Virus record (IMG/VR): IMGVR_UViG_3300017963_000230
Coordinates: 64,001 to 87,833 of that record
Length of the DNA stretch: 23,833 bases
Strand: one strand, 5' to 3'
Source: a virus
Positions 3,090 to 20,978 of this stretch are shown in pieces (position 1 is the first letter of the stretch; the number at the start of each line of letters is the position of its first letter). The notes beneath the pieces were generated by a model. That model had not been told where the DNA came from, ran no database searches, and saw only the letters and a list, made by a program, of their open reading frames with translations. Position numbers and translations under genes: made by a program.

Positions 3090-3820
3090 AGCATCTCTAA
3101 GAATTCAATATCTCGTTCAGCAGTTTCTTCCGTATTATAGTTTTCTTCTGTATCTCTTATCCTAGCAAACCAATAATTGCCTTCATGATCCATTATATAA
3201 AGAGGTTTAGAATAGTCGTCCAGATAATCCTCTGCCTGCCTAAAAGAAGCCAACGTATAGTCATTCTGAAAATGAGGTAATGTGTAATTTCTTTCCCTTC
3301 TAACTCCTCCTAGCTTGGTGCTCCTCTCCATGCCTCCCAATGTTTCACGCCAGCGAACATTAGGTAGTGGTTTACCTGAAGGACTTTCATAATTAATCCT
3401 AAACTCATACCCTAAACTCATCCACACCTCAGTACATTGAGGATTTACAGCACCAATAACCCGTATTCTCCAATAACGGTGAGTTAAAGCTGTAGTAAGG
3501 GTTTTTATGATTTGAGTATTACCAGACTGAGTCCAACTGGTAACAGCAGGTGACCAACTACTTCCATTATCACTATATTCCCAATGCATCGTTCTTCCAT
3601 TAAAATTATGTCTTTCAATCGCTAAGAAATCAACATTAAGAATACCAGATCCTTGATCGCACTCTATACTAATGTCTCCAGTATTAGTGTATTTCCAATA
3701 GAAGTCAATCGACCTGTCATAAAGTCTACTTTCAGGATAACCGCTATCAGGAGATCCTGTAACGGTTACCGAAGCGTCTTCCGCTAATATATTGTAAGGA
3801 AATAATTTTACAGATGACAT
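3086..3820 (-). CDS. Distal-tail (Dit-like) or minor tail protein with discoidin-like domain
   Basis: This 244-residue protein sits between tape measure and hub, where distal tail proteins are usually encoded. Residues ~30-140 contain 'LAIERHNFNGRTMHWEYSDN' followed by 'SSWSPA' and 'HRYWRIRVIG', a pattern typical of F5/8-type C/discoidin beta sandwiches. The C-terminal part, 'LDDYSKPLYIMDHEGNYWFA' followed by 'RIRDTEENYNTEETAERDIEF', resembles the end of small tail-tip proteins that carry a 'PLY..D..GN.W..R' strand. It starts 1 nt after the tape measure stop. The ribosome site is weak (GGGGAA about 8 nt upstream), suggesting coupling. The exact role (Dit versus an M-like minor tail protein) is not settled by sequence alone. 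Confidence 0.65.
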   Translation of the reverse strand: MSSVKLFPYNILAEDASVTVTGSPDSGYPESRLYDRSIDFYWKYTNTGDISIECDQGSGILNVDFLAIERHNFNGRTMHWEYSDNGSSWSPAVTSWTQSGNTQIIKTLTTALTHRYWRIRVIGAVNPQCTEVWMSLGYEFRINYESPSGKPLPNVRWRETLGGMERSTKLGGVRRERNYTLPHFQNDYTLASFRQAEDYLDDYSKPLYIMDHEGNYWFARIRDTEENYNTEETAERDIEFLEML

Positions 3821-3821
3821 T

Positions 3822-6800
3822 CTATTTTCCCCATCTTACTCCTAGTGCTTCGAGTTCTCGTTTAATTTCAACCGCTGCCTGTCGCATACTCCTACGGTCG
3901 CCTGTTAAATACCTAGGTGCTATATTAACATTGATAACTTTGCCTGGTTCCTTAGAGCTGTAAGGAACATTTCCTCCTTCTTGTAGCTTTACTATGGCAG
4001 GAGCAGGGGCAGGAGCCATTATTAAACCTCCAGTACGAGCGGCCACATAAGCCGTCCTACTTTGGGTGCTATAAGAAATATTGGAAAGGGAGGAGTGAAC
4101 ACGGGCACCAGCAGACCTTATATAGTTCACTACATTGCCTCCCTTTCGCAACTTGACTACTTTAGTATTAGAAGTGATAACTTTCTTTTTGATTTCTTTG
4201 ATTAAGCCACCTATTTTAGCAGCTACCCCTCCGCCATCCCCACCGTCGCCAGCAGCAGAAGCAGCAGTGGAAGCAGTTTCAGACCCACCAGATCTTTGGG
4301 CACCTCCTTGTGCCTCAACTACGGTCTGCGGCACCGTCATCTTATTAAGACCTTCAAAGAAATCAGGACCATATTTGCTAACAGCTTCTTTACGGGCGAC
4401 AAATTCCCCAGGCTCCAACATAGCTCTAACAATGTCTCCGCCTCCGTATCCAGCTATCTTACCTCTAGCCCTATCCGCCCATCCGCCTATTCTTCTGTGA
4501 ATTACTTCTTTAACTTGCTTAACTATTCCTCCCTTTCTCATATAGGTTCGCTCGCTCGAATCTGACTCTACAGTTTCACCCTCACCTTCAGGAGTAGTGG
4601 TAGAAGTGCTTCCACCTCCTCCACTCTGCTTAACTTCAACATTCAAAACTACTGATTTAGATTCAATTTGGTCCCATTCCTTTCTGAACTTGGTGACCCA
4701 ATCGTACATTTTATCCAATTTATCCATTGCTTCATCAGCTTGTAATTCCAATTTCTTCCTTGAAATTTCATCCATCTCCCCTTTGTATGCTTTTAACAAA
4801 TCAGTCATCTTAGTGATTGCTGTTTCTACATCCTGTTGTTCCTGTTTTCTATCCTCTGATAGATTTTTAAACGTGAGTTGTGCATTACGAGCGATATCCT
4901 GATACTGTTGGGAGAACCTACGGGCATTCTCTTCAAGGGTGTAAATTACTTCTCCATTTTCGTCCTTAACTTCGGTGGCTAACTGTTTGGTTAATTCTAG
5001 TGCTTTGTTGAAAAGTTCCTTATCTTTAGTTATTCTAGCCCTTCTTAAAACATCATCCCTTTCAGCCATTATGCTTCGGAACTTCTGCTCTTCACTCATC
5101 CCCTGACGGGATATTTCAAGAGCCTCTTCTTGACCTTTCTTTTTAAAATCAAGAGAGGTCTTTTCAAAATCTTCAGCCTCTTTTCTAAGTTCTGATTGTC
5201 TTTTCTTCAGTTCATTAATTATACCCTGGGTTACCTTAGCATTTTCCTTTAGTATCTTCTCAGTAAGTTCGGCCTCAAGCTCTCCCCTTTTCTGTGTAAT
5301 AACAGATTGATAACCCAAAATAGTATCCTGATGGTCTTTCTCTATTTGGGTTCTTTTCTCCAGATTTTCTTGCTTTACACGGGTTACCTCTTCCTCATTG
5401 CCCTGCGCTAACAGTAATTCCTTCTCATAAGTTTTCTCCCTTTCCTCTAATCGTCCTTCGTATTCCTCATTCTCTTTCTCTACAAATTCCTGTATCAAAT
5501 TTATCTGGTCATTTAAACTTTCCTCTGTAGTCTTGGTTTCCTTACCCATATCTTCCGCAAACTTGGCAAGGTATTTAGCTCTAATAGCAGCCCTTTCCTT
5601 CTGGAAACTCTCTTCTTTACCAAGAAGTATCTTTATCTGATCCTCAGCAGCCGCTATTTCATTTTCCATCTGTTTAAGTCTCTTAGCGAACTCTACCTTC
5701 TGGATGGGATCTAAACTCCTAAACATCTCTTGAAACGATTTAGGTAACTTACCTAACTGTTTTTCCCATTCCTCAGTCTCCTTCTCAAACTTAACGGTTA
5801 CTTTATTAAGTTCTTCAGTTATAGCAGATATAGCCTCTGGGCTTAACTTAACTCCCTGCATTTCTTCGATCTGCTTTATTATATCTTCTATAGAGGCCTG
5901 TCCTTTTGTAATTTCTTTGAGTTTTTGAGCCATAATAACATAAGTGTTAATGAGCTCTTCATTCTGCTTTTTATACTTTTCGGTTGATTTACCAGCATCT
6001 TCTAGATTTTCCGTAAAGTAACCTAAAAATTTACTAAGGGTTTCTAAGCCCTTCTTTCCTACATCCGAAAAGAAAGCAAACGCTGGGCTCAGTTTCCTCA
6101 GCACTATATTAGCTAAATCTATAATTTTGGCTCCAAAATCAGCAAGCCATTTAATTCCCTTGAGTATCCATTGACCAAAATCAGCTAACACACCTACAAA
6201 TACACCACCGAACCTTTTTACTCTTTCCTTAAATCCTTCCCATTTTCCAGTTTCATCTAATAGCTTTTTTTGCTCTTTAGCCAAATCAGAAGTTACAATG
6301 ATACTCTTTTTAAGTTCTTCCTCATATGCTCTCTGAGTAAGCACCGCATTCCTACCTACTGCATCTACTGACTCAGACAACACACCATTCAATAATTCAT
6401 ATTCTTTCCTTAAACGAGCAACTAACCCAGCATGTTCCTTACTTACATCCTTACCTTCATTCTGTCTTGCCTGAAGATCTGAAAGTGCCTGAGCATACAC
6501 CCTAAGAGTCTGTACAGTTTTCTCCTGCTCTTGTTGAGTTTTAATGGCCGCATTTACAGCTCTTTCTTGAGCACCTAGCCAAAACTTAATAGCTGCTACC
6601 ACCGCACCTATAGCTGCCGCCAGTAATAACCATCCTCCTTTAAATCCTTTTATTATCCCACCCACATTTAAAAGAGCAGTTTTCATTCCCTTAAATGTCA
6701 GTAAGGATTGACCCGAGACTATTTGAAGTTGAACTAATAATTGAATATACAATCTTAAAGTGGTAATGGCAGCACCTATTTTACTGCCAAGAAATACAAA

Positions 6801-8183
6801 AGCCACAGACAGACCTCTCAAAGCCTGTATAGACAACCAAATAGTACCTGTCCACACGGTAAAACTTGTAGTTAGCCTACCAGGACCTGAACTAACAAAA
6901 TCAGCAATACCTTTTGCAACGGCTCTGAGCACATCGATAAAACCTTTCATAACTCCTATTGCCCCGCCTTCACCGAAAGCTACTGCTATCAATTTTGCTC
7001 TATCTGCTAAATTCTTAATCTTAACTCCAAGACCTTCCATCTGTTTTGCAGCCATCCTAGCAGCTGAACCCACTTCATAGGTATACTCCAACATCTTACT
7101 AAAGTCACCTGTAACAAAAGCACGAGTAAGGATAGCGGCCGCTTGGGCACCACGCAGTCCAAACAACCTGTAAGCCTTGCCCATATCTACAACTTGCCTC
7201 TCAGAGTCATACAGTATAGGCTTGAGGTTCATTAAAGCCTGTTGGAATCCTACTAATTTAGGATTAACTTTGGTTAGAGCAATACCATGTGCTTCAAATT
7301 CCTCTCTTAAATTGCGGTTAGGTGCAAGAAGTCTGGCTAATACTTGCCTCAAACCAGTACCAATGGTACTTGCTCTCAGACCGTTATTAGCAAGAACCAT
7401 CATAGCGGCGGCGGTCTCTTCCAGCGATAGGCCTGTTTGTGCTGCCGCGGCACCTACAAAGTTGAACGCTATGCGGAGTTTGTCAAGGGTAAGTTTAGAA
7501 CGGTTGATAGCATTTGACATAACATCAGATACACGGGCTGACTCTACCGTTTGGAATCCAAATGCACGAATAGTGGTGGTGAGTAAATCAGAAGTAGTCT
7601 TTAAATCAGATAATGTTCCAGTAGCCAAGTTAGCTACTGCTTCCATCGACTGCATTGCCTCTGTAGCACTAAAACCAGCCTGTCCTAACAATACCATTCC
7701 CTCTGCTACTTCACCAGTAGAGAACTTGGTTTTCTGTGCCACATCTTTTATTGTTTCACCCATACCTAGCACTTCGTTGTCGGTAGCACGGGTGATAGCT
7801 TGGAGGTTTTTAAGAGCTTGATCAAAATCTATGATTTCCGTAACACCTGCTTTAAGAGCCTGCACTACGGAGAAGATAGCTGAGGCGGCTAATCCATAGG
7901 AAGCGGTTACCTTCATAGCAGCCAAAACACGCTTCCAAGCACCTTCCACTTTAGCAATCTGCTTGCTGTATTCCTGGACCGTCTTGCCACTCTTCTTAAC
8001 ACTCTTATCTACCTTGTCAATACCAGCGGCAGTTTCACTTCCCATCTTGGATCCGCCCCTAGCTCCCTGTTCAAAGGCAGCTCCCATCTTGCGTAATTCT
8101 TCTCTAATGCGGGCGGTTTTACTTAGGAAATCGCGTATGTCAGCCGTAAAAAGTGTACCTAGATTTAATGTTCTGTCAGCCAT
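3822..8183 (-). CDS. Tail tape measure protein (TP901 type)
   Basis: At 1453 residues this is the longest gene in the window and directly follows the tail chaperone pair, the diagnostic position of the tape measure. Residues ~115-340 match the TP901 tape-measure core, with 'FDQALKNLQAI', 'STGEVAEGMVLLGQAGFSA', 'LATGTLSDLKTTSDLL' and 'GLSLEETAAAMMVLANNGLR'. Hydrophobic segments lie at ~440-490 and ~515-540 ('GGWLLLAAAIGAVVAAIKFW'), as expected for a protein ejected into the host membrane. A highly charged, coiled-coil-rich region spans ~720-1170. The C-terminal third is Gly/Ala-rich. The ATG at 8183 overlaps the stop of the T-frame by 8 nt, so translation is probably coupled. By the usual 0.15 nm per residue rule the tail would be about 210-220 nm (inference). 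Confidence 0.95.
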   Translation of the reverse strand: MADRTLNLGTLFTADIRDFLSKTARIREELRKMGAAFEQGARGGSKMGSETAAGIDKVDKSVKKSGKTVQEYSKQIAKVEGAWKRVLAAMKVTASYGLAASAIFSVVQALKAGVTEIIDFDQALKNLQAITRATDNEVLGMGETIKDVAQKTKFSTGEVAEGMVLLGQAGFSATEAMQSMEAVANLATGTLSDLKTTSDLLTTTIRAFGFQTVESARVSDVMSNAINRSKLTLDKLRIAFNFVGAAAAQTGLSLEETAAAMMVLANNGLRASTIGTGLRQVLARLLAPNRNLREEFEAHGIALTKVNPKLVGFQQALMNLKPILYDSERQVVDMGKAYRLFGLRGAQAAAILTRAFVTGDFSKMLEYTYEVGSAARMAAKQMEGLGVKIKNLADRAKLIAVAFGEGGAIGVMKGFIDVLRAVAKGIADFVSSGPGRLTTSFTVWTGTIWLSIQALRGLSVAFVFLGSKIGAAITTLRLYIQLLVQLQIVSGQSLLTFKGMKTALLNVGGIIKGFKGGWLLLAAAIGAVVAAIKFWLGAQERAVNAAIKTQQEQEKTVQTLRVYAQALSDLQARQNEGKDVSKEHAGLVARLRKEYELLNGVLSESVDAVGRNAVLTQRAYEEELKKSIIVTSDLAKEQKKLLDETGKWEGFKERVKRFGGVFVGVLADFGQWILKGIKWLADFGAKIIDLANIVLRKLSPAFAFFSDVGKKGLETLSKFLGYFTENLEDAGKSTEKYKKQNEELINTYVIMAQKLKEITKGQASIEDIIKQIEEMQGVKLSPEAISAITEELNKVTVKFEKETEEWEKQLGKLPKSFQEMFRSLDPIQKVEFAKRLKQMENEIAAAEDQIKILLGKEESFQKERAAIRAKYLAKFAEDMGKETKTTEESLNDQINLIQEFVEKENEEYEGRLEEREKTYEKELLLAQGNEEEVTRVKQENLEKRTQIEKDHQDTILGYQSVITQKRGELEAELTEKILKENAKVTQGIINELKKRQSELRKEAEDFEKTSLDFKKKGQEEALEISRQGMSEEQKFRSIMAERDDVLRRARITKDKELFNKALELTKQLATEVKDENGEVIYTLEENARRFSQQYQDIARNAQLTFKNLSEDRKQEQQDVETAITKMTDLLKAYKGEMDEISRKKLELQADEAMDKLDKMYDWVTKFRKEWDQIESKSVVLNVEVKQSGGGGSTSTTTPEGEGETVESDSSERTYMRKGGIVKQVKEVIHRRIGGWADRARGKIAGYGGGDIVRAMLEPGEFVARKEAVSKYGPDFFEGLNKMTVPQTVVEAQGGAQRSGGSETASTAASAAGDGGDGGGVAAKIGGLIKEIKKKVITSNTKVVKLRKGGNVVNYIRSAGARVHSSLSNISYSTQSRTAYVAARTGGLIMAPAPAPAIVKLQEGGNVPYSSKEPGKVINVNIAPRYLTGDRRSMRQAAVEIKRELEALGVRWGK

Positions 8184-8559
8184 TTTTAAAACTACCTGAT
8201 AATTTTGGTTTAATCCTCTTTAACATCTCCATTGTAAGTTTTCTTCTGTCCTTTATTGACATGTGTTCATAGGATTCAGGATCCTTGAAGGTCGTAAGAT
8301 CCGTTTCCTTTTTCTTCTCCACCTCTTTGTCAAGATTGACACCAGCCATAGAAGCCCTAAAGCGCATCTCCTTATAAATACGGTCTTGGTAATGATCAAA
8401 TAAAACCTCAACCTGTCCAAAAGTAAGGCCTCCATTCCTATAACTTAACTTATAGAAGTGGTCTAAGGTGTAGCCGTAGATCTCACAACACGTGGTGACC
8501 GTTTCGGCGAGGGTGACAGTTGCTCCTGCCTCTTCACCTCCGGGAAGAGGCTTGTCAAC
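8176..8559 (-). CDS. T-frame of the frameshifted G-T tail chaperone fusion
   Basis: The -1 frame is open from just upstream of the slippery site to the stop at 8178-8176. Read from 8559 it gives 127 residues beginning VDKPLPGGEEAG, then 'LAETVTTCCEIYGYTLDHFY', 'KLSYRNGGLTFGQVEVLFDH', and ends 'KPKLSGSFKNG'. With G residues 1-119 the fusion is 246 residues. No credible start codon with a ribosome site exists at the head of this frame; the ATG at 8367 has only an SD-like AAGGAG touching the ATG and would drop the conserved-looking 'LDHFYKLSYRNGGLTFGQ' part. The stop overlaps the tape measure start by 8 nt. 'HFYKLSYRNGGLTFGQV' is typical of T-type extensions in lambda-like phages (from memory). 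Confidence 0.85.
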   Translation of the reverse strand, partial: VDKPLPGGEEAGATVTLAETVTTCCEIYGYTLDHFYKLSYRNGGLTFGQVEVLFDHYQDRIYKEMRFRASMAGVNLDKEVEKKKETDLTTFKDPESYEHMSIKDRRKLTMEMLKRIKPKLSGSFKNG

Positions 8560-8915
8560 TTTCCCAAAGGGCCTTCAAAGTTCTCCTTATAAACGATCTC
8601 CACAATTTCCATTAATTGAACATTCGTTATCTCTTCCAATATACTTTTATCTTCATCAGTAATCATCTCAACAATACGCTCGATATTTTCTTTGATTAAA
8701 CTTAACACAAAGGCTATAAACTGCATCATTCCTTCTTCATTTTCATCAGGTGCCATTTGAAGGAAAGCATTCAATCCTTTATTTACAAGGTCTGTGAGAT
8801 TAAGCTGATCAGATAATGAAAGAGGATAGATGGAAAGGTTCCGCAGGGTTCGCTTGCCTATTTCGACAGAGCGAACCTGCGGATTGAGTTTTCTATCATC
8901 AGAAGAGTCTGGCAT
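8463..8915 (-). CDS. Tail assembly chaperone, zero-frame product (lambda G-like)
   Basis: This 150-residue protein lies between the tail tube and tape measure genes, the place of lambda G. It is mostly helical and acidic in residues ~35-115 ('SLSDQLNLTDLVNKGLNAFL', 'LSLIKENIERIVEMI'). After residue 119 the zero-frame sequence becomes basic and Ser/Pro-rich ('QLSPSPKRSPRVVRSTATP'), as expected where the biologically meaningful reading continues in another frame. The start ATG at 8915 has a good ribosome site (GGAGGG, 7 nt spacer). A -1 frameshift at codons 118-119 extends it into the T-frame. Family knowledge: the G and GT proteins bind the tape measure and recruit tube subunits during tail assembly. 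Confidence 0.85.
   Translation of the reverse strand: MPDSSDDRKLNPQVRSVEIGKRTLRNLSIYPLSLSDQLNLTDLVNKGLNAFLQMAPDENEEGMMQFIAFVLSLIKENIERIVEMITDEDKSILEEITNVQLMEIVEIVYKENFEGPLGKLTSLFPEVKRQEQLSPSPKRSPRVVRSTATP
8528..8565 (-). promoter_or_regulatory. Programmed -1 ribosomal frameshift site with downstream hairpin
   Basis: On the minus strand 8571-8559 reads CCCTTTGGGAAAG. In the zero frame this contains three overlapping X_XXY_YYZ heptamers: C_CCT_TTG, T_TTG_GGA and G_GGA_AAG. The last, GGGAAAG at 8565-8559, is the heptamer used at lambda G/T. Seven nt downstream is a perfect 8-bp stem, GCCTCTTC (8551-8544) with GAAGAGGC (8535-8528), around an 8-nt loop. Spacing and stem match the usual stimulatory layout. 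Slipping at any of the three heptamers gives the same peptide (Pro-Leu-Gly-Lys-Val). Confidence 0.88.
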
Positions 8916-8940
8916 TTTATTTCCCTCCTAAAAGGTTGTT

Positions 8941-8954
8941 TCAGCTATTAAGCT
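8941..8954 (-). other. Small hairpin around the tail tube stop codon
   Basis: On the minus strand CAGCT-TAAT-AGCTG forms a 5-bp stem with the TAA stop in the loop. TAA is followed in frame by TAG (tandem stops). No U-tract follows, so it is not a rho-independent terminator. A similar arrangement occurs at the capsid stop. Confidence 0.4.
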
Positions 8955-9568
8955 GTAGTAGTAGTGGTAGTGGTGTAAGTTGTGGTATTCCAGATAATGT
9001 GACCCAGAGGGGCACTATCCCATACCGCATTTCCACCACTAATCCCGCTGTCTGCTCTCTTAGCCTCGAGTTGAAGGGCAACAGCAGCAGGTTCCTCAGG
9101 TGCAAACTCCATCTCAATAGAAGCAATAGCCTGAGCTCTTGGGAAAACAATGGTCATGGTGTTGGAGCCATCAGGGAAGGTATACAAAGCCTCCACTCTA
9201 ATGAACACCGGGGTTGAAATGTTACCCAACGGCACATCTCCACTATGTGCATTGGTATAATCTGCAGGATCCAAGCCATAAGCTAGAGCCATGTTTTTGG
9301 GAGTGATTTCCCTAAAACCACATGACAGCATAGCTGATTCCCGCAGCGGGAATGTAGCGTCCTCTAACAGAGGATATCCAGACTCTAGCTTATAGAATTC
9401 CAGATTACCTGTGTAAGAGGTGTTTGCCATAGCGCCTAGGCTGTGTGCAGAACCGAGACAGGGATTATAATTATGAATATTAGCCGCTGAAGGGCCTACC
9501 CTGATCTGCGCCAGACCTAACGCAATGGTGGTACTGTCTTTGGTCAATGGACCATAACGATCAACCAT
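8948..9568 (-). CDS. Major tail (tube) protein with C-terminal poly-Thr tail
   Basis: This 206-residue protein lies between the tail terminator region and the chaperone, the position of lambda V. Its opening, 'LGLAQIRVGPSAANIHNY' followed by 'SAHSLGAMA', then 'LEFYKLESGYPLLEDATFPL', is typical of siphophage tube proteins that begin with a variant of 'GQIRVG...SLG...' and carry 'ESGYP'. It has a strong ribosome site AAGGAGG with 8 nt spacing before the ATG at 9568, consistent with high expression. The last residues are NTTTYTTTTTTTA followed by TAA TAG. The same kind of tail ends the capsid protein and one connector protein and is not a normal part of tube proteins. Function as tube subunit is inferred from order, size and motifs. 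Confidence 0.83.
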   Translation of the reverse strand: MVDRYGPLTKDSTTIALGLAQIRVGPSAANIHNYNPCLGSAHSLGAMANTSYTGNLEFYKLESGYPLLEDATFPLRESAMLSCGFREITPKNMALAYGLDPADYTNAHSGDVPLGNISTPVFIRVEALYTFPDGSNTMTIVFPRAQAIASIEMEFAPEEPAAVALQLEAKRADSGISGGNAVWDSAPLGHIIWNTTTYTTTTTTTA

Positions 9569-9590
9569 AGTCTATACCTCCTTGTTAAAG

Positions 9591-9881
9591 TTAATGATTA
9601 CGAGTTTCTGCCAGAACTTCAGACTGCTCATTTATAGGATTAACCTCAATGTCGTCTGATTGACTTGCAAACCTCACCTTAGGCCAAAAATAAAAAGTAT
9701 TAAACTTACCGCAAGATCTCCTAAGACATTTCATCTTAAGCGATCCAAATATTATCATTTCAACAGGAGGATCTCCTGGATTTTCCTTATCACTACCAAA
9801 TACAAACTTCCAACATCCATTCGGTAGTCTTTCTATCATTCGCTTTCCACAGTACTTGCAGTGGTAGAATCGTTTTGCCAT
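9591..9881 (-). CDS. Small zinc-ribbon protein, possibly Com-like
   Basis: This 96-residue protein begins MAKRFYHCKYCGKRM and has a second Cys group, 'MKCLRRSCGKFNTFYFW', at residues ~49-65, together forming a likely four-Cys zinc ribbon. The spacing and the 'KC..SCGKFNTF' ending recall the phage Mu Com family, whose members end in a 'CPRCGTIN'-type knuckle. Here the second pair is Cx4C and the loop between pairs is longer than in Com. The C-terminal 30 residues are acidic and probably disordered. It lies between tail terminator and tail tube. Com activates translation of a DNA-modification gene (mom), but no mom-like gene is seen here, so the assignment is only a family resemblance. Confidence 0.6.
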   Translation of the reverse strand: MAKRFYHCKYCGKRMIERLPNGCWKFVFGSDKENPGDPPVEMIIFGSLKMKCLRRSCGKFNTFYFWPKVRFASQSDDIEVNPINEQSEVLAETRNH

Positions 9882-9891
9882 AATAGAGTTC

Positions 9892-10356
9892 TCACTTTGC
9901 CGGTGCCCTTAATCGTACTGTTATTATTTTATATTTGGTTTCATCAGGACCTTCCATAGGTATTGACTCATACACTTCGGTAACTAGCAGTTTCCCTATT
10001 TCTGTCCATGGATTAGTAGGATGACTCTGATAGAAAGTGATTCGTTTAAAGGCATCAGATTGACTGGTACTAGAGTCAATCGAAAGTCCTTCCACAATAG
10101 TGTCCCTTAACTGGGATAATTTAAAATATTCATTATCCTGTCTCGTACAGCAGTACACATGTACCAAGGTGTCAGATAAAAGAGCTACTTCTGAAAGGTG
10201 AATAATTACATTTATCCATTTATGAACGGTACGCCCTTGCAAGTCAGGCTGAGATAGAGCTTTATCAAAAGACATAGGGACGGAGTAGGTGTCTATAAAG
10301 AACTTTTTAACACTATCTCTGATATTTGCTTCTCTTGCTGTAGCGTCTAAAGTCAT
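9892..10356 (-). CDS. Tail terminator / tail completion protein candidate
   Basis: This 154-residue protein precedes the tail tube by one small gene, the place of tail terminators (lambda U). I place the start at the ATG at 10356 (MTLDATAREANIRDSVKK), because AGAGGTG lies 9 nt upstream; a GTG at 10368 would add four residues with no clear ribosome site. The mix of an N-terminal amphipathic helix ('IRDSVKKFFIDTY'), central beta strands ('HKWINVIIHLSEVALLSDTL') and a C-terminal strand ('YKIITVRLRAP') fits the small alpha/beta fold of terminator proteins. No family motif is decisive, so the call rests mostly on order and length. Confidence 0.5.
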   Translation of the reverse strand: MTLDATAREANIRDSVKKFFIDTYSVPMSFDKALSQPDLQGRTVHKWINVIIHLSEVALLSDTLVHVYCCTRQDNEYFKLSQLRDTIVEGLSIDSSTSQSDAFKRITFYQSHPTNPWTEIGKLLVTEVYESIPMEGPDETKYKIITVRLRAPAK

Positions 10357-10385
10357 ACTGTTATACACCTCTGTTCTTAAATTTA

Positions 10386-10412
10386 GTGCAGTTTATTTAA
10401 CGAATTCTGCAC
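10386..10412 (-). other. Weak inverted repeat in a 79-nt gap
   Basis: GTGCAG (10386-10391) and CTGCAC (10407-10412) form a 6-bp stem with a 15-nt loop. The short word AATTTAAGAA (minus strand) occurs on both sides. There is no U-tract, so a terminator is unlikely. This is the largest non-coding gap in the connector-tail part of the cluster. Confidence 0.25.
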
Positions 10413-10436
10413 GAACTTCTTAAATTGCTTGCTGTG

Positions 10437-10646
10437 CTATTTGCTAAACTTTTCCGCGTACTCTATTACGCTTTTAGCTTCTGGAATGAAGTTGTGCTCC
10501 AAGAACTGCTCTTCCTCAAACTCTTCATGTACACGAGCATAAACAGGAAGACTGTTCTCAATATACGTTTTGAGCATTTTAAGTTCTTTTAATGGCATTT
10601 CAATTTGAACATGAACATCCTTTGGATAAGCATCCACTATCTTCAT
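10437..10646 (-). CDS. Small acidic protein of unknown function
   Basis: This 69-residue protein starts MKIVDAYPKDVHVQIEMP. I do not recognise it. Two ATGs sit back to back at 10649 and 10646; AAGGAG is 3 nt before the first and 6 nt before the second, so the second is preferred. The start overlaps the upstream stop as TGATG. The sequence is helical and acidic ('LKELKMLKTYIENSLP', 'HEEFEEEQFLEHNF') with no Cys or membrane segment. It lies between a membrane/coiled-coil protein and the tail terminator candidate, so a connector or regulatory role is possible but unsupported. Confidence 0.6.
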   Translation of the reverse strand: MKIVDAYPKDVHVQIEMPLKELKMLKTYIENSLPVYARVHEEFEEEQFLEHNFIPEAKSVIEYAEKFSK

Positions 10647-10966
10647 CATCTACTCCTTGTTTGTTCATTGATGATTGCATCTTGCTTTTTCTTAAGGGAT
10701 TCCAATTGTAATCTTAATTTACGATAACGTTCACGATCTCTGGCATCATTCCATCTAGAACAATTATCATTTCCATGTTTATCTTCCAATTGACCCATCT
10801 GCATAGATATTTGATATATTGCATCTCCTACTATCTTCTGTTCTAGCCTAAGGTCAACAAGATTAAGATCTTCACTCTTAGCAAAGTAGGACAGTCCTCC
10901 TACTACCATTCCAATTATTGCCAGAACGGTTAAAATTGATTCGACATTACCTTTTAACCATTTCAT
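10646..10966 (-). CDS. Single-span membrane protein with coiled coil
   Basis: This 106-residue protein starts at the ATG at 10966, which overlaps the upstream stop as ATGA and has GGAG about 7 nt upstream; the ATG at 10972 is too close to the same site. Residues ~8-28 ('SILTVLAIIGMVVGGLSYFA') form one hydrophobic segment, preceded by a positively charged start (MKWLKGN). The rest is a charged helix with heptad-like pattern ('RYRKLRLQLESLKKKQDAI'). This topology resembles XhlA-type lysis accessory proteins or inner-membrane spanins, but the gene sits among connector genes, not in a lysis cassette. A single Cys is present (DNCSRWN). Function is unknown; lysis or membrane interaction is inference. 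Confidence 0.62.
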   Translation of the reverse strand: MKWLKGNVESILTVLAIIGMVVGGLSYFAKSEDLNLVDLRLEQKIVGDAIYQISMQMGQLEDKHGNDNCSRWNDARDRERYRKLRLQLESLKKKQDAIINEQTRSR

Positions 10967-11478
10967 CGCCATGCTCCCATTAATTTAGACATTGATTGAG
11001 TAGCTTGCTTAGGCCATCCTTCTTCTATAAACTCTTCAAGGGTAGGATTAAAAAGAGGCCTAGCAGCCTGCCCCCTTCTACCATATTCAGCCCAATACCC
11101 ATACTCAGCTATGCTAACAGGTGGACCAGGATCCGTTCCAAACCAAGAAGTACCAGGTGCCATAGCATGTGCAGGAACTCCTCCAAACCATCCTCCACTT
11201 AGTTTAAAAATTGTAAGAGACCTTTGTAAGGCTCCGCTCATTATCCACCATCTACTTTCACCAAAAGCAAACAACTTCCATTCCCTATAACGCTGGTTAA
11301 GAGGTGACCACTGTCCTGCAAACTTTTGAATACTGATATTACTACTTACACGATAAACATAGTCCAGTGCCGAACGCATGGGAAGGTCATTCTGCTCTAT
11401 CTGTGCCTTCCTTCTTATCTTTATCAAGGCACCCAGATACCGACGGTAGCTGTTCAAATCCCACGACATTCTCACCAT
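10963..11478 (-). CDS. Head-tail joining / tail completion protein (HK97 gp10- or lambda Z-like)
   Basis: This 171-residue protein begins MVRMSWDLNSYRRYLGAL at the ATG at 11478, with AAAGGA 9 nt upstream. A TTG at 11484 would add two residues. The middle carries 'WSPLNQRYREWKLF' and 'WIMSGALQRSLTIF', and the end 'AEYGYWAEYGRRGQAARPLF' then 'NPTLEEFIEEGW'. 'L..RY...K', 'L.M.GAL..SL' and 'YA..HEfGR.g.paRPFl' patterns are typical of small phage virion morphogenesis proteins that complete the head-tail joint. Its first ~30 codons overlap the end of the preceding gene by 92 nt in another frame, which is unusually long. Confidence 0.68.
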   Translation of the reverse strand: MVRMSWDLNSYRRYLGALIKIRRKAQIEQNDLPMRSALDYVYRVSSNISIQKFAGQWSPLNQRYREWKLFAFGESRWWIMSGALQRSLTIFKLSGGWFGGVPAHAMAPGTSWFGTDPGPPVSIAEYGYWAEYGRRGQAARPLFNPTLEEFIEEGWPKQATQSMSKLMGAWR

Positions 11479-11650
11479 TTTCAATTATCCTTTGATACGC
11501 TTCATAATCGGCTTTTTTTAGGGCTTCCCTCATCATTAAATAAGCCGAGTAAAGTCTATGCAGTAATCTTCCAGGTTCACAATTTCCGCCACATCGCTTA
11601 ACAAAAATATCTACTCTGATTAAATCCTCATCGCTGATAAACAAATTCAT
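11387..11650 (-). CDS. Small protein of unknown function
   Basis: This 87-residue protein begins MNLFISDEDLIRVDIFVKRC and overlaps the upstream stop as ATGA; a GAGG element lies 7 nt before the ATG. The first ~60 residues look helical ('RLLHRLYSAYLMMREALKK', 'DYEAYQRIIENG') with two Cys ('RCGGNC'). The last ~30 residues ('GCLDKDKKEGTDRAE') overlap the following gene in another frame and are low in hydrophobics. I do not recognise a family. A role near the head-tail joint is suggested only by its position. Confidence 0.55.
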   Translation of the reverse strand: MNLFISDEDLIRVDIFVKRCGGNCEPGRLLHRLYSAYLMMREALKKADYEAYQRIIENGENVVGFEQLPSVSGCLDKDKKEGTDRAE

Positions 11651-11829
11651 AGTATATGCCTCGGATCCACCTCATACTGATCTCCTTCTGGTAATCCGGT
11701 CTTACTATTCACTACATAAAAAGGCTTAAAACACTTAGGACAAACTACCTTGAAACGGTCGTCCTCTTTACTGCTGATTATAATAACTTCTGTTCCGCAA
11801 TAAGGACATAAACAACCTGGCTTGGACAT
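11647..11829 (-). CDS. Small zinc-ribbon protein
   Basis: This 60-residue protein contains 'CLCPYCGTEVI' and, about 22 residues later, 'VVCPKCFKPFYVV', two CxxC knuckles that should bind one zinc ion. I place the start at the ATG at 11829 (MSKPGCLCPYCG), 9 nt after AGGAG; the ATG at 11835 is only 3 nt from it. The fold resembles zinc-ribbon regulators and Com-like proteins, but the short length gives no specific function. It is one of four small Cys-rich proteins in this cluster. It is coupled to the next gene through an ATGA overlap. Confidence 0.6.
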   Translation of the reverse strand: MSKPGCLCPYCGTEVIIISSKEDDRFKVVCPKCFKPFYVVNSKTGLPEGDQYEVDPRHIL

Positions 11830-11878
11830 TAGCATAATCTCCTATGCTAAAGATAAAAGAACTCAAGCATTGAACTCA

Positions 11879-12544
11879 TTAGGCAGTAGTCGTAGTAGTA
11901 GTGGTGTAAGTTGTGGTGGTAGTGGTAGTAGGTCTAGTGTCAGTTCCCACTTCCAATACGTCCATGCCTTCAAATCTTCTCTTTTTTATCGCCTCTACCC
12001 TATAGTACTCTCCAGAGCTTAACAGCAGGCGATCTAAAACTTGGATATCATAACTGGATGGAACAAATGCCTCATGCACCTGTAACCCAATCAATCCAAG
12101 TTGCTCGTCTGTATCTAAGTCTATACCAAATAAAGGAGCCGTGATCAGTATAGGTTTGTTGGTTTCAACGGGTGTCCAAGTAGTTTTCATCAAAAGGGTT
12201 TGACTGTCCCTTGACTCACTTGGTCTGTACACCGTCATGGTTTCATTGGTTTTATATAATACGCCTTGATATGAGATAACTGTATTCTCAAACATCTCTG
12301 GCGTTAAATTCATTATGAAGTATTTCTCTGATGTGGTGGTAAATTGAATGACATCTCCAGCTAACGCTGAAGTATCATATACTAGGGTAGCTTCGAGAAA
12401 GAACTCTCGAATGAAGGGTTTTGTGACCTGAGCATTAGTTTCGTAGTCAAGATATTCTCCAAGAACATTCCCACTGTCCCTTAATATGTTATATTTAGTT
12501 CCGACCTCAACAATAGCTTCTTTAATATCAGGTCCAATGGTCAT
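11879..12544 (-). CDS. Head-tail connector / neck protein with C-terminal poly-Thr tail
   Basis: This 221-residue protein starts at the ATG at 12544, overlapping the upstream stop as TAATG. The body is beta-rich ('FFLEATLVYDTSALAGDVIQ', 'EYYRVEAIKKRRFEGMDVLE') and ends in a run that reads PTTTTTTTYTTTTTTTA, followed by TAA TGA. The part around 'LLLSSGEYYRVEAI' resembles the late strand of phage head-closure or stopper proteins. Location between an adaptor-like gene and the joining protein supports a neck role. The poly-Thr tail shares a 20-nt identical stretch (ACCACAACTTACACCACTAC) with the tail tube gene. The exact connector role is uncertain. Confidence 0.62.
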   Translation of the reverse strand: MTIGPDIKEAIVEVGTKYNILRDSGNVLGEYLDYETNAQVTKPFIREFFLEATLVYDTSALAGDVIQFTTTSEKYFIMNLTPEMFENTVISYQGVLYKTNETMTVYRPSESRDSQTLLMKTTWTPVETNKPILITAPLFGIDLDTDEQLGLIGLQVHEAFVPSSYDIQVLDRLLLSSGEYYRVEAIKKRRFEGMDVLEVGTDTRPTTTTTTTYTTTTTTTA

Positions 12545-12999
12545 TAGTCATTCTCTTTAGGAGTAAAATCAACTTCAGCTACATCACTATAAGTTATGTC
12601 CTCTCCTGTCTGACCTTCATAAGCAAATCCAGCATCGATCTTAGTACCAAAAGCATGAAATGGATCCACAGCACCAAAAAGATCAGGTCTATCTTCTTGA
12701 AACGCTACGAATTCCTCATCCATCGTACTGATTATTTCTTTATAATGTTCCCACCTTTGCTGAAGGTTTATTTGCTTATATTTGAATTTATGAGCAGATT
12801 CGGAGTAAAGGTAAAAGAAGATATGACGTTTGGCTCTTTTCTTAATCCATAACAGCTTGAGGGTGTCATCTAAAGGTAATGTCCATCCAGTTTCAGCCTG
12901 GGCATCTCCCAATCCATTTACGTAATCATCCCTCTCCAGATAAGTATCTAGATTTTTAACTTCCTCTGTTAGCTGATCGATTAATTCTTCTTCAGTCAT
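12544..12999 (-). CDS. Head-tail adaptor candidate
   Basis: This 151-residue protein is acidic and helical, with 'EELIDQLTEEVKNLDTYLER' at the start, then 'TLKLLWIKKRAKRHIFFYLY', then 'NLQQRWEHYKEIISTMDEEF'. All-helical proteins of this size directly downstream of the capsid gene are commonly head-tail adaptors (HK97 gp6 type). The C-terminal ~45 residues are Gly/Asp-rich. The ATG at 12999 has AGGTGA 6 nt upstream and overlaps the previous gene by 8 nt. The adaptor role is inferred from order and helical content rather than a motif. Confidence 0.52.
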   Translation of the reverse strand: MTEEELIDQLTEEVKNLDTYLERDDYVNGLGDAQAETGWTLPLDDTLKLLWIKKRAKRHIFFYLYSESAHKFKYKQINLQQRWEHYKEIISTMDEEFVAFQEDRPDLFGAVDPFHAFGTKIDAGFAYEGQTGEDITYSDVAEVDFTPKEND

Positions 13000-13183
13000 C
13001 TTGTTTCACCTGAGAAGGAAGCCTTCTTGACTTCCTATGATAAATAACCTTTATAGTTTTAACACCAAGGTCTACCTCTTCTTGTATGTCAGGAGGGAGG
13101 GGCGGCACTAAAACCGTCCCCTCCTCCCATATCTTTTTACCACTCTTTAGAGTACTCAATATTATTACTTTTTCGATATCCAT
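12992..13183 (-). CDS. Small protein after the capsid gene, unknown function
   Basis: This 63-residue protein begins MDIEKVIILSTLKSGKKIWE at the ATG at 13183, with a strong AAGGAGG 8 nt upstream. A GTG further up at 13210 would extend it into the region just after the capsid stop without a ribosome site. It appears to be a compact beta-strand protein ('IKVIYHRKSRRLP') with a Pro-rich middle ('VLVPPLPPD'). Its position right after the capsid recalls lambda FI, but there is no sequence basis for that name. It overlaps the next gene by 8 nt. Confidence 0.6.
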   Translation of the reverse strand: MDIEKVIILSTLKSGKKIWEEGTVLVPPLPPDIQEEVDLGVKTIKVIYHRKSRRLPSQVKQDD

Positions 13184-13208
13184 ATCGATTGCCTCCTTAA
13201 TTTCAACC

Positions 13209-13224
13209 ACTGCTATTAAGCAGT
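13209..13224 (-). other. Small hairpin around the capsid stop codon
   Basis: On the minus strand ACTGCT-TAAT-AGCAGT forms a perfect 6-bp stem with the TAA stop in the 4-nt loop. TAA is followed in frame by TAG. It has no U-tract. The same layout (GCT-TAAT-AGC core) occurs at the tail tube stop, although the outer stem bases differ. Confidence 0.42.
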
Positions 13225-14544
13225 TGTAGTGGTTGTGGTGGAGGATGATGTAGTCGTGGTGGTTGAGGTGGCTGCTAAGCCAGCTGCCTGTGCAACGGTT
13301 AAAACGTAAACCGCATCTCTCTGATAGAGAACGGGCAAGCCTTTATCCTGCACCCTAATCCACGTTACTTCAGGATCCCAATCCGTATTGGTATCCGTGT
13401 ATTGACCATAATGGCGAGCTACTCCGAAAGGTGCTTCTTTGTACTCAGCAATATTCTGACCATCGACTCTGGTAGACATCATAACGAACTTGTAGTCCGG
13501 TACGAATTTCTGTGCCATCGTTACATAGTCTTCCATCGCTTTGTACGAATTGGTAAATGGATATTCTATCTGAACGGTGCCAGCCTCGGCGTCTACTGAA
13601 AGGATGTACCTTTCCTCCCAAGTGCCAGCACTACGATCATGAATTCTCAGCGTTCCGCCAACTACAAAATCCTCATTGGCATCTACTGATATCCAAGTCG
13701 TGCTTCCGCCTGTTACGGCAGCAGTCAACCAGGCTTTGATCTCATATTGTTCATCGTAAACGACAAACCGAGGAATATCCAGTAAGGAACCCAGGATCTG
13801 GGGGTTGACACCCACAATTTCATGCACATTTCTGGCGATATTACCATAAAGCTCGCCAGTGCCGAAGGCGTCTCGCTTCAACAAGTTAGTGATGTTGGTG
13901 TCATTAGCAAGCAGTTTCAAGGTGCTGGAGTTAAAAATAGCGATGTCTACTTTACCGCCACACTCATCAGCAATTCGCTGCTTACCGTCCTGGATGTCGC
14001 CTATCACATTTCGACTTGCACCTGATCCCCAGTAGTAAGATGAGGTAAGTGCAACCCGGTTTGCAGTAGGAATACCATAATCAATGCTGACCTTATAGCC
14101 TCCCTGTACATCATAGGAGAAGCCATTATTGAACAGCATCTGGGCAAACATCCATTCCTTTCGTCTATTGCTCCTGTTTTTAAGGTTAGCCAATTCCCTC
14201 GCCAGTTTCTGCTGAGCTGTCATACGTTGGGATTCGGTGCCAGGTTGACGAAGATTATTTAGGAACTCTTCATCAAAAGGCATTTTCTCTTTCCAGTATG
14301 CAGCCTCGGCTCTGTGCTGGCTTATCCCGTGAGGAGCGGTCTGGGGCGCCGGAGCACCAGGCGGAACGAATGGGGTCATACCCCTTCCACCTCTGTGGCT
14401 TTCCCACTCGATGCTACTTGATGGGGACTGGCTGGATCCAAAAATGTTCATTAGAATCAATTCTGGCGGTGTAACAAATATCTCCATGTAATTCTGGAGA
14501 ACCGACAGTCTCAATTCCGGTATATCACTTTGACCACGTGGCAT
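13216..14544 (-). CDS. Major capsid protein (lambda gpE-like) with inserted beta domain and poly-Thr tail
   Basis: This 442-residue protein has the opening of the phage capsid E family ('MEIFVTPPELILMNIFG', then 'SIEWESHRGGRGMTPFVPP' with Pro/Ala-rich follow-up and 'AEAAYWKEKMPF'). The HK97-fold core continues with 'RRKEWMFAQMLFNNGF', 'DIQDGKQRIADECGGKVDIA' and 'VHEIVGVNP'. Residues ~272-340 hold an extra beta-rich segment ('WISVDANEDFVVGGTLRIHD', then 'YILSVDAEAGTVQIEYPF') between 'FVVYDEQYEIK' and 'VPDYKFVMMS', probably a surface domain. Residues 425-442 are almost only Thr and Ser, ending in Ala. A GGAGGTGA ribosome site 6 nt upstream predicts high expression. It lies after the protease/scaffold and decoration genes, as in lambda. 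Confidence 0.9.
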   Translation of the reverse strand: MPRGQSDIPELRLSVLQNYMEIFVTPPELILMNIFGSSQSPSSSIEWESHRGGRGMTPFVPPGAPAPQTAPHGISQHRAEAAYWKEKMPFDEEFLNNLRQPGTESQRMTAQQKLARELANLKNRSNRRKEWMFAQMLFNNGFSYDVQGGYKVSIDYGIPTANRVALTSSYYWGSGASRNVIGDIQDGKQRIADECGGKVDIAIFNSSTLKLLANDTNITNLLKRDAFGTGELYGNIARNVHEIVGVNPQILGSLLDIPRFVVYDEQYEIKAWLTAAVTGGSTTWISVDANEDFVVGGTLRIHDRSAGTWEERYILSVDAEAGTVQIEYPFTNSYKAMEDYVTMAQKFVPDYKFVMMSTRVDGQNIAEYKEAPFGVARHYGQYTDTNTDWDPEVTWIRVQDKGLPVLYQRDAVYVLTVAQAAGLAATSTTTTTSSSTTTTTTA

Positions 14545-16988: not shown

Positions 16989-17414
16989 TCATACCTCTAT
17001 ATAAGGGTTGCAATAAAAAACCTCTCCGCCACGAGAGGCTACAGGTCTTACTTTAATAAAGGCATTATGTTTGATTGCATCTTTTACAGTTTTAGTTTTA
17101 CTACCTCCGCCAGAAGCGCCAACAGACAGCCCATTACCAATATATATCTCAACATGTACGACATGGGCATTCTCGTTAGCCCAGAAAACAAGATCTCCTG
17201 GTCTAGGTCCTTCAGTAGTAACAAATCTTTTAGCTAGAATATGAGCTGTCCAGTCACCCGATCTAGGAAGAATTCCCACAGATTTTAAGCACTCGATAGC
17301 AAGACCGCTACAGTCAAATCCTGAGGGATCGTCTCCTCCCCAAATATAAAAAGTGCCAAGATAGGACATAGCGATTCTCTGTACGAGCTTTCTGGCTACT
17401 TTTTCATCTATCAT
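16989..17414 (-). CDS. NlpC/P60 family cysteine peptidase
   Basis: This 141-residue protein is a minimal NlpC/P60 domain: 'YIWGGDDPSGFDCSGLAIEC' holds the catalytic Cys35 in the DCSGL motif, and 'RPGDLVFWANENAHVVHVEI' followed by 'YIGNG' holds the catalytic His87. Such enzymes cleave D-Glu-diaminopimelate-type bonds in peptidoglycan. No signal peptide or cell-wall-binding domain is seen. It lies between portal and protease genes, whereas lambda carries its NlpC protein (K) in the tail-tip block. It overlaps the portal stop as ATGA and has an AAGGAGGA site. It could be a virion lysin used at entry or an endolysin; the sequence does not decide. Confidence 0.88.
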   Translation of the reverse strand: MIDEKVARKLVQRIAMSYLGTFYIWGGDDPSGFDCSGLAIECLKSVGILPRSGDWTAHILAKRFVTTEGPRPGDLVFWANENAHVVHVEIYIGNGLSVGASGGGSKTKTVKDAIKHNAFIKVRPVASRGGEVFYCNPYIEV

Positions 17415-19103: not shown

Positions 19104-20978
19104 TCAAGTATAATCCCCTACGATTCCTGTGCCTTGAATGAATGTTCCAAAGCTAGTCATTGACTTTCTGATTCTAAAAGAGTCAGGTCCGAGCATACGA
19201 CCTCCGTATAAACACCATCCCACACTATACACGGAATCGTCCTGTATTCCTCCCTTTTCAGTCTTTTCTGGACTTCCGAACCATCGCTTAATGGGATCAT
19301 GATCAAAGACTGACAGCTCTTCACGTAAAACATCGACCCGTTTACTTCCGACCACATGGATTGGTGGGCATTTAAATCTACCCTCACGGGCAACATTATA
19401 AAACTCTTTAAATGCTTCCCGTTGTCGGTCGTAATTAGGAAAGATAGGTTCGAAGAAAATATCTCGATCCTCGCACCACTGAACCATATCCCAGGACCCG
19501 TAGCGCTCGCTGCAGAATGCATCAATTCCATCATATTCTGTATCCATTTCGTCCATTAGACGTTTAACAATATTGATATCTTGATTCTGAATACTTGTCA
19601 GGAATATCAATATGTAGATATACTTCATATCTGGTATTTCAATAGTTTCATGGAAAGGATTACTGCGGCTTCCTGCCAGTCCCTTAAGCACAGCACAGAA
19701 AATGGTGCGAGCTTGTCCATGCACAGCAGTAGGATCTGCCATGTCAAGTCCAGTAAGTAAAGCCCAATCAGTATCAAAAATATCAGAAAGGAACTGCAAC
19801 GTAGAAACCGAAGGTGGACTATCTACAAAAGGACCTTCAAGGGTGAAAAGGGACTCTACCTTTCTAAACTTACTATCTATAAGAGCTACTCTTTCCCAAT
19901 CAGCTGCCGCCCCTTCGTTAAATCCTTTACCAGCAGTATCCTCCGCTCTAGCAATCAACTCATACTTTCTTCTAATAGCCGTTTGTATTTCATCATGATT
20001 TAAAAATCCATTATCTACACCGATGTAACCCATTTCCTCAATCATTTCATCTGTAAAAACCCGTACAGTTCCAGCCTCCCAGAGGTTCTGAAAATATCTC
20101 TCAAACTCTCCAAAAGGAAATTTGACTTTATAGTCATTAAGTTGATCCTCATCCATAAGAGGGTTCCAATAATCTTCCGAATCTGCACTTCTCGAGCACC
20201 TATAGCTGAAGTAGACATTTCGCAGGTTTCCTGCTTTCCATTCTTTATATAAATTATAGAGTACATGGGTCTTATCTGACACGGTTGAGTCGATTAAGCC
20301 AAACGCATTAGGTATATTTCTAATACTACCATCTAGCTGTACATAGAACCTTGGATTCTTCATATCAAACATTTCACTGAATGAGTAGGCTGTTATATTA
20401 GAAAGTATACCAGTAAAGGTACCAACGCTGCGGATGATACAATCTATGTCCTTACTCTTAGGATCGTCAGGGTCTTCCTTCAATCTGATTTCTTTTTCTT
20501 GGATATTATTCTTACCAATTAGTGCTAACAACGATGGGCTGTGGAGAATGATATCCCGTATAATATCATAATGAACGAACTTAACTTGGTCTCTACTATT
20601 AGCCCCTAGCATGATCTTCTGGCGGGAGAATGCCATAAACTTCCAGATTATTATAAGGCAGACTATTAGTGATTTACCTTCACCTCTCATCCAACAAAAC
20701 ACTATCTGCCTGTAGAGGAAATAACCTTCCTCATCCATCGCTAGACATTCCCTTAATATATCCTTCTGCCTTTCCCACATCTCTTTGTAGGAACGCTTAG
20801 TCTTGGGATTAGGTGTGTCAGGTAGATCACTTAGGGGGCACCAGTACTCCATTTTGTCTATGAAAATAGGAACCCTTACATGATCCTCACAGAAGCGAAT
20901 ACACCCTTCGGCTCCATCCTGATATGTTACCACTTCGTGATCTGCTGCTTTGATTCTACTCGCTCTTTTTACTGTCAT
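19104..20978 (-). CDS. Terminase large subunit
   Basis: This 624-residue protein is the packaging motor. Residues 94-103 (FCWMRGEGKS) are the Walker A element. The following 'KIMLGANSRDQVKFVHYDII' and 'ITAYSFSEMFDM' (~195-206) form the rest of the ATPase, with the glutamate of the Walker B region present but a Ser in place of the usual preceding Asp. The nuclease half shows Asp412 ('LLTGLDMADP'), Asp486 ('YDGIDAFCSERYG') and Asp580/581 ('GGIQDDSVYS') in the usual three-Asp arrangement. The ATG at 20978 has AAGGAG 9 nt upstream and overlaps the preceding stop by 4 nt. Family-level assignment is secure; the packaging strategy (cos or pac) cannot be read. Confidence 0.93.
   Translation of the reverse strand: MTVKRASRIKAADHEVVTYQDGAEGCIRFCEDHVRVPIFIDKMEYWCPLSDLPDTPNPKTKRSYKEMWERQKDILRECLAMDEEGYFLYRQIVFCWMRGEGKSLIVCLIIIWKFMAFSRQKIMLGANSRDQVKFVHYDIIRDIILHSPSLLALIGKNNIQEKEIRLKEDPDDPKSKDIDCIIRSVGTFTGILSNITAYSFSEMFDMKNPRFYVQLDGSIRNIPNAFGLIDSTVSDKTHVLYNLYKEWKAGNLRNVYFSYRCSRSADSEDYWNPLMDEDQLNDYKVKFPFGEFERYFQNLWEAGTVRVFTDEMIEEMGYIGVDNGFLNHDEIQTAIRRKYELIARAEDTAGKGFNEGAAADWERVALIDSKFRKVESLFTLEGPFVDSPPSVSTLQFLSDIFDTDWALLTGLDMADPTAVHGQARTIFCAVLKGLAGSRSNPFHETIEIPDMKYIYILIFLTSIQNQDINIVKRLMDEMDTEYDGIDAFCSERYGSWDMVQWCEDRDIFFEPIFPNYDRQREAFKEFYNVAREGRFKCPPIHVVGSKRVDVLREELSVFDHDPIKRWFGSPEKTEKGGIQDDSVYSVGWCLYGGRMLGPDSFRIRKSMTSFGTFIQGTGIVGDYT

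Follow-up and report, generated by a model that had tools for sequence, protein, structure and literature searches.

We analysed a stretch of 23,833 nucleotides, positions 64001–87833 of the 87,833-base virus record IMGVR_UViG_3300017963_000230 (the window), in which three minus-strand genes, encoding the major capsid protein, a head–tail connector-like protein and a tail tube-like protein, each end in a C-terminal run of Thr and Ser residues closing in Ala (Table 1). The three C-termini are exactly as an initial annotation of this DNA had given them. When open reading frames (ORFs) of at least 50 residues were selected greedily from the whole 87.8-kb record, three of the 119 carried at least 10 Ser or Thr within their last 20 residues, and these three were the capsid, connector and tube proteins. 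With the record's own Thr and Ser frequencies, the chance of such a tail is 2e-11 for the capsid, 1e-10 for the connector and 1e-7 for the tube protein. The initial claim that no other structural protein ends in this way holds for the record and fails among its relatives, which have tails on further tail-region proteins. Two of these are encoded by G001, the record of locus L006 (70295–71698 and 71701–73854; ending in TTTTTTTTTTTTTTA and TTTTTSSTTTTTTA, respectively), the former with a chitobiase C-terminal-like domain (PF13290).

The capsid protein matched PF03864 (Phage_cap_E; expectation value, E = 3e-34) and phrog_29 (E = 1.8e-48). Its AlphaFold2 (AF2) model had a mean predicted local distance difference test score (pLDDT) of 74.9, and the top Foldseek matches were the capsids of YSD1, lambda and Chi (template modelling score by query length 0.45–0.49). 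The last 16 residues (427–442) had a pLDDT below 50, as expected for a disordered tail. The names connector and tube were taken mainly from gene order. The tape measure gene was clearly identified in a PHROG search; the connector had no match in Pfam and a single weak one in PHROG (E = 0.014), to a family without assigned function, and the tube protein had no match in PHROG or Pfam and no usable structure prediction for placing its C-terminus (pLDDT 34.7).

Table 1. Tailed virion genes, their predicted acceptor tags and the shared 20-mer (window coordinates).
Feature	Position	Strand	Basis or remark
Major capsid protein (Phage_cap_E, HK97-like fold), C-terminal Thr/Ser tail	13216..14544	-	PF03864, phrog_29, AF2, Foldseek
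Capsid tail TSTTTTTSSSTTTTTTA, predicted O-glycan acceptor tag	13219..13269	-	low pLDDT; none on 8 untailed capsid rows
Head–tail connector-like protein, Thr tail	11879..12544	-	role by gene order; homologues in relatives
Connector tail TTTTTTTYTTTTTTTA, predicted O-glycan acceptor tag	11882..11929	-	untailed relatives mostly stop at ...DTR
Tail tube-like protein, Thr tail	8948..9568	-	role by gene order
Tube tail TTTYTTTTTTTA, predicted O-glycan acceptor tag	8951..8986	-	untailed tube ends in G007, G008, G010, G011
20-nucleotide stretch common to connector and tube genes, connector copy	11898..11917	-	record position 75898
20-nucleotide stretch common to tube and connector genes, tube copy	8967..8986	-	record position 72967

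Inheritance of the tails was followed in 39 loci from a capsid-led scan, tails being scored on their ORFs and on 78 stretches fetched with the nucleotide pattern (ACN)7-GCN-TAA. Since the latter were picked for a Thr tail, the unbiased sample consists of the capsid-fetched loci only. At many loci not all three genes are visible but just one or two. Open (cut) ORFs were excluded, and a tail was called when 14 or more residues at the C-terminus satisfied a 70% Ser/Thr rule. Every closed capsid, connector and tube protein found in the near group carried a tail. No tails were found in the far group, where the capsid and connector proteins end at, or within two residues of, the would-be start of the tail; the usual end of the untailed connectors, ...DTR, is the point at which the tail of the window's connector begins. 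The tubes of the untailed records G007, G008, G010 and G011 also end without a tail, and that of the far-group locus L036 has an unrelated 113-residue extension. In a capsid tree of 34 rows, built with the tails trimmed, the 26 tailed rows fell on one side of one branch (support 100/97) and the eight untailed rows on the other, with the untailed L022 adjoining the tailed group. A single tailed/untailed change was needed, a number as low as this being reached in 0 of 500 shuffles. The tails, which vary in length among relatives (capsid extensions 22–73, connector 13–46, tube 13–35 residues), persisted in all three genes among loci whose capsids are ~60% identical. A patternless absence of the runs from some of the three genes, which the initial annotation had named as contrary evidence, was looked for, and relatives possessing these genes had tails on all that were shown or on none.

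An 11-gene cassette (g79–g89) for glycosyltransferases, methyltransferases and sulfotransferase-like proteins lies outside the window, at record positions 50151–59383, on the same strand as the structural genes. By Pfam, g79 belongs to glycosyltransferase family 2 (GT2; PF00535, E = 5.4e-10), g89 is GT4-type (PF13439, E = 1.2e-6), and g81, g85 and g87 have weak glycosyltransferase matches. The methyltransferase match of g80 (PF08241, E = 2.1e-16) was accompanied by a weaker one for g84, and the sulfotransferase match of g83 (E = 1.6e-6) by one of g86 below the cut-off (0.019). No family match of its own was found for g82, whose homologue in G001 is weakly GT2 (E = 0.01), nor for g88, which reads as a putative methyltransferase. 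Searches of the PDB gave no match for g89, g82 or the sulfotransferase-like g83, and one weak match, a mannosyltransferase, for g85. Single-protein scans with g89 and g85 recovered almost nothing beyond the phage itself, and g89 had no tblastn match among 50,697 phage records at E 1e-5.

Among the large records compared by blastp, homologues of g82, g84, g85 and g89 were present in all four tailed ones (G001, G002, G004 and G005). In the three untailed ones (G007, G008 and G010), g82, g85 and g89 were unmatched and g84 was matched only in G008, at 26%; capsid, portal and terminase are common to both sets. (Three proteins absent from the ORF-filtered set, the capsid of G002 and the tubes of G004 and G005, were seen in a separate homologue search.) Three of the four tailed records also contained g79 and g80; the contig of G001 stops before them. 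The order g89-(g88)-(g87)-g85-g84-g82-g80-g79 was kept, with gaps and insertions, in G002, G004 and G005, and in G001 to the contig end except that g84 and g87 change order. The sulfotransferase family PF03567 was found in two of 15 records, G000 and its near-copy. The untailed relatives have a different cassette (G007 44724–55229, G008 66162–74867, G010 1–9931), with GT2 genes and genes reading as radical SAM and other enzymes. In G007 and G008 it separates the connector gene from the neck gene, and in G010 it precedes the neck gene.

A search blind to the tails was made with five g89 proteins combined into a profile. It returned 127 relatives in viral contigs; 80 were kept, and their loci were scored by a fixed rule (at least 10 Ser/Thr in the last 14 residues, at least four of them Thr). 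At least one Ser/Thr-tailed ORF was present at 39 of the 80 loci (22/47 at ≥40% identity to g89, 17/33 below 40%), and all 64 tailed ORFs were on the strand of the enzyme (4.2 and 6.0 per 100 kb in the two identity classes). None of 69 control viral loci fetched with a random 15-base pattern was tailed (576 kb, 2534 ORFs); these were shorter on average, and the 36 that reach 8 kb or more likewise had no tail. The random pattern served as control because a GT2 control scan (A2) yielded too few loci (six, none tailed). Crude dereplication removed six g89 loci and left 36 of 74 tailed (Fisher p = 2e-13 against the random loci). Six of the 80 (L162, L163, L169, L172, L173 and L196) derive from records that contributed to the profile or from a near-copy; a near tail was present at one of the six, and leaving these out gave 38/74. 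Of the 25 loci at ≥40% identity that had no near tail, two belong to the window's phage or its near-copy, L190 already covers its entire contig, and for the other 22 the complete record was searched. A TTTTTA-stop pattern was found in nine of these 22 (backward control, 0), and a Ser/Thr run anywhere, not restricted to the C-terminus, in five of the remaining 13; neither was found in the five untailed records. Tails or runs accompany 38 of the 47 loci at ≥40% identity, or 32 of 41 when the six seed loci are omitted.

The association extends beyond the capsid family of the window. A trio of small proteins, each with a long Ser/Thr tail, is encoded in tandem at L230, L243 and L214, which are divergent loci. 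The trio comes immediately after a gene for a capsid-like protein from a different family (PF25209, E = 2.1e-17, tested in L230), and a g89 relative lies 1–3 kb past it, followed by genes reading as epimerases and glycosyltransferases. The trio are possible decoration proteins; one was scanned and had no PHROG match. Ten tailed proteins of other lineages, eight of them from the 78 pattern-fetched stretches, were scanned. Three had no PHROG match, and the seven others matched major tail protein, head decoration, major head protein, minor tail and tail families. Two GTDB contigs found with g89, in a Deltaproteobacteria and a Desulfobacteraceae metagenome-assembled genome, both carry Thr-tailed proteins, a g79 homologue and genes reading as the rest of the cassette. 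They hint at hosts for the relatives, not for the window's phage, and the binning may be wrong.

A candidate for the initiating enzyme emerged from profile searches with g79. The top PDB match of a four-protein g79 profile was polypeptide N-acetylgalactosamine (GalNAc)-transferase 10 (GALNT10, E = 6.3e-6). With a 21-homologue profile GALNT10 was again at the top (E = 6.8e-10), followed by GALNT7, the bacterial GT2 6h1j (5e-8), GALNT9, another polypeptide GalNAc-transferase, GALNT4, GALNT12 and GALNT1. The alignment with GALNT9 spanned model positions 7–243, over most of the catalytic domain, and matched the D-x-H motif, the GGE turn and the later His. D-x-H in place of D-x-D is the metal motif and signature of the GALNT enzymes (CAZy family GT27), in agreement with the alignments: D-x-H was present in 30 of 31 g79 homologues from 82 loci (the exception being a 222-residue ORF) and GGE[N/H/F] in 29 of 31, whereas 6h1j and the GT2 proteins of the untailed records have D-x-D. 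By these features g79 appears to be a GALNT-like enzyme, its closest solved structures being mucin-type polypeptide GalNAc-transferases, which likewise have dense Thr/Ser acceptors. The GalNAc-transferases are eukaryotic and usually have a C-terminal lectin domain; g79 is a phage protein of 338 residues with a predicted activity, in which no C-terminal lectin domain was detected, Pfam assigning it and all 21 profile members to GT2-type families only.

From the tails, their all-or-none inheritance, the cassette, the co-occurrence of tails and cassette across unrelated lineages and the GALNT-like motifs of g79, all computed here, we infer that the tails themselves are glycosylated. They probably serve as acceptor tags for O-glycosylation of the virion by the phage's own cassette, with a mucin-like coat as the likely product. 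Abundant virion proteins would have gained disordered Thr/Ser tags at their C-termini, and these proteins would be produced together with the cassette, as suggested by strand and position. In the host cytoplasm, the cassette enzymes would place O-linked glycans on the flexible tails, with either the GT4-type g89 or the GALNT-like g79 starting the chain, and methyl groups and, in this phage, sulfate would finish them. Assembly would then set the glycans outside, as a dense coat on head, neck and tail with a role in shielding or in adhesion, both of which are possible. O-linked modification was among the roles suggested in the initial annotation, and the all-or-none tails, the mixed codons (see below), the co-inherited cassette and the GALNT-like enzyme argue well for this prediction. 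We also lean, with less assurance, towards a wider proposal, that a portable mucin-like tagging system exists in several unrelated phage lineages, in which tails on capsid, decoration, connector, tube and fibre proteins would receive a modified O-glycan coat from a phage-encoded pathway made up of a GALNT-like initiator, a GT4-type transferase as its signature enzyme, methyltransferases and, in some cases, sulfotransferases.

Virion glycosylation of the mycobacteriophages Che8, Corndog and Myrna was reportedly described by Freeman et al. in 2023, as cited in PMC12619734, PMC12363180, PMC11600133 and PMC11256854. Eleven Che8 and seven Myrna proteins were checked and showed no poly-Thr tail. By Pfam, Che8 gp108–110 comprise GT2 plus methyltransferase, GT2-like and GT25 proteins, differing from the shared GT4-type and GALNT-like enzymes found here and the sulfotransferase-like proteins of this phage. 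GtfA/GtfB glycosylate serine-rich repeat adhesins, their substrates being bacterial surface adhesins; a GT4-type enzyme acting on Ser/Thr-rich repeats in the cytoplasm would follow the same logic as that proposed for g89. In mycobacteriophages, both capsid and tail tube are reported to be glycosylated by enzymes that the phages themselves encode (PMC12619734, PMC12363180, PMC11600133), with glycans at C-termini and, in cluster O, transferases beside an O-methyltransferase (PMC12619734, PMC12363180, PMC11600133, PMC11256854). The statement in the initial annotation that no such system had been described in phages was therefore wrong, and the principle is already known. Both systems have phage-encoded glycosyltransferases with an adjacent methyltransferase (here g79 and g89 with g80 and the weaker g84). 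The Ig-like domains that project from the outer surface of siphophage tail tubes are C-terminal like the tails, but are folded domains, with no enzyme cassette mentioned in the part of the paper available (PMC8718954). A literature search, with most subscription journals outside its reach, found no paper on a poly-Thr tag, Thr-rich phage proteins or mucin-like phage capsids. What looks new is the tag of poly-Thr, together with how widely it is spread and the set of enzymes that accompanies it.

Several observations weigh against this interpretation. All the evidence is sequence, and the glycans are a prediction. Cassette genes were found on just six of the 78 pattern-fetched stretches, which is a lower bound because several stretches are short pieces of cassette-bearing records, and some lineages may use tails without the cassette. 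At the g89 loci, nine of 47 at ≥40% identity had no tail or run (eight as whole records by two strict patterns, L190 by its ORFs), nor did 16 of the 33 below 40% have a near tail, scored at the locus only; moreover, these loci are related, so that the p-values overstate independence. PF00535 glycosyltransferases are also present in the untailed G007–G011, so sugar genes by themselves do not predict tails, and the rule that any glycosyltransferase does so was rejected on account of the other GT2 genes in the untailed records. The capsid and major tail protein of Che8, reported to be glycosylated, have no terminal Thr runs, and hhalign gave no match between cassette profile A7 and gp108 or between A6 and gp109/gp110 (single Che8 sequences; g89 and g85 lay outside the comparison). 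Furthermore, ten other phages, one of them with a methyltransferase gene, are reported to have shown no glycoprotein (PMC12894461), so that such genes alone prove little.

The runs might instead be neutral low-complexity growth through replication slippage, for which the varying tail lengths among relatives could speak. However, neighbouring Thr codons were identical in 7 of 29 cases in the record's tails (9.8 expected at random) and in 116 of 521 at 20 loci of the clade (138 expected). With no surplus of identical adjacent codons there is no mark of triplet slippage, which was rejected. The retention of tails in three genes across the diverged capsids, their absence from all eight untailed rows and, in this record, their restriction to the C-termini of three virion proteins also make neutral growth hardly credible. 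The initial annotation had taken the mixed Thr codons as a sign of selection on the residues, a view well supported by these counts and by the all-or-none distribution. It had also favoured a common module over slippage, citing 20 identical nucleotides in the connector and tube runs. The identity was confirmed, at those two sites only in the whole record. In L003, whose capsid is 90% identical, all three tails are kept with many codons changed; tail codons thus change fast, and the 20-nucleotide identity is a weak sign of one copied module. The initial interpretation, made from DNA that does not include the cassette, is partly supported: it stands in its residue selection and O-linked modification and falls in its novelty and in the evidence for copying.

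Alternatively, the tails could need no modification and work as disordered polar brushes that help in spacing, solubility or adhesion, with the cassette serving elsewhere, for example at the host surface. Modification is a prediction, and poly-Thr does occur in phage proteins with no cassette gene on the same stretch. Nevertheless, g89-type enzymes lie near Ser/Thr-tailed proteins across capsid families, always on the same strand and never at the random loci, and the large records have either both the tails and the core cassette genes or neither, so that we consider unmodified brushes unlikely. Phage glycosyltransferases are also known to modify DNA (PMC12619734), and a cassette acting on phage DNA would be linked only indirectly to the tails. 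DNA modification would leave the tails on virion proteins unexplained. The hydroxymethyl base that carries the sugar usually comes from a thymidylate-synthase-type gene, and no such gene (PF00303) was found in any of eight records, 9 of 14 control genomes being positive. DNA glycosylation was rejected as highly improbable.

If tag-directed O-glycosylation is correct, many uncultured phages would have sugar-coated particles that can be recognised by sequence, from a Thr/Ser tail together with a g89-type enzyme. This would give a handle on the frequency of virion glycosylation, reported for mycobacteriophages in the literature surveyed. Being short and transferable, such an acceptor tag, served by cytoplasmic enzymes, would also offer a useful non-eukaryotic model of mucin-type glycosylation and might be harnessed to produce O-glycoproteins in laboratory bacteria.

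Two further observations were made. Seven contigs of 181–256 kb (L087, L096, L125, L129, L136, L146 and L156), on whose stretches no cassette gene was found, have in common a 125-residue protein with three Thr blocks that ends in TTTTTTTA (cut in L087 and L129). Among the head genes of the window, at 16989–17414 and 20975–21538 on the minus strand, two small genes read as putative NlpC/P60-kind cysteine peptidases, and these adjoin the portal and terminase genes.

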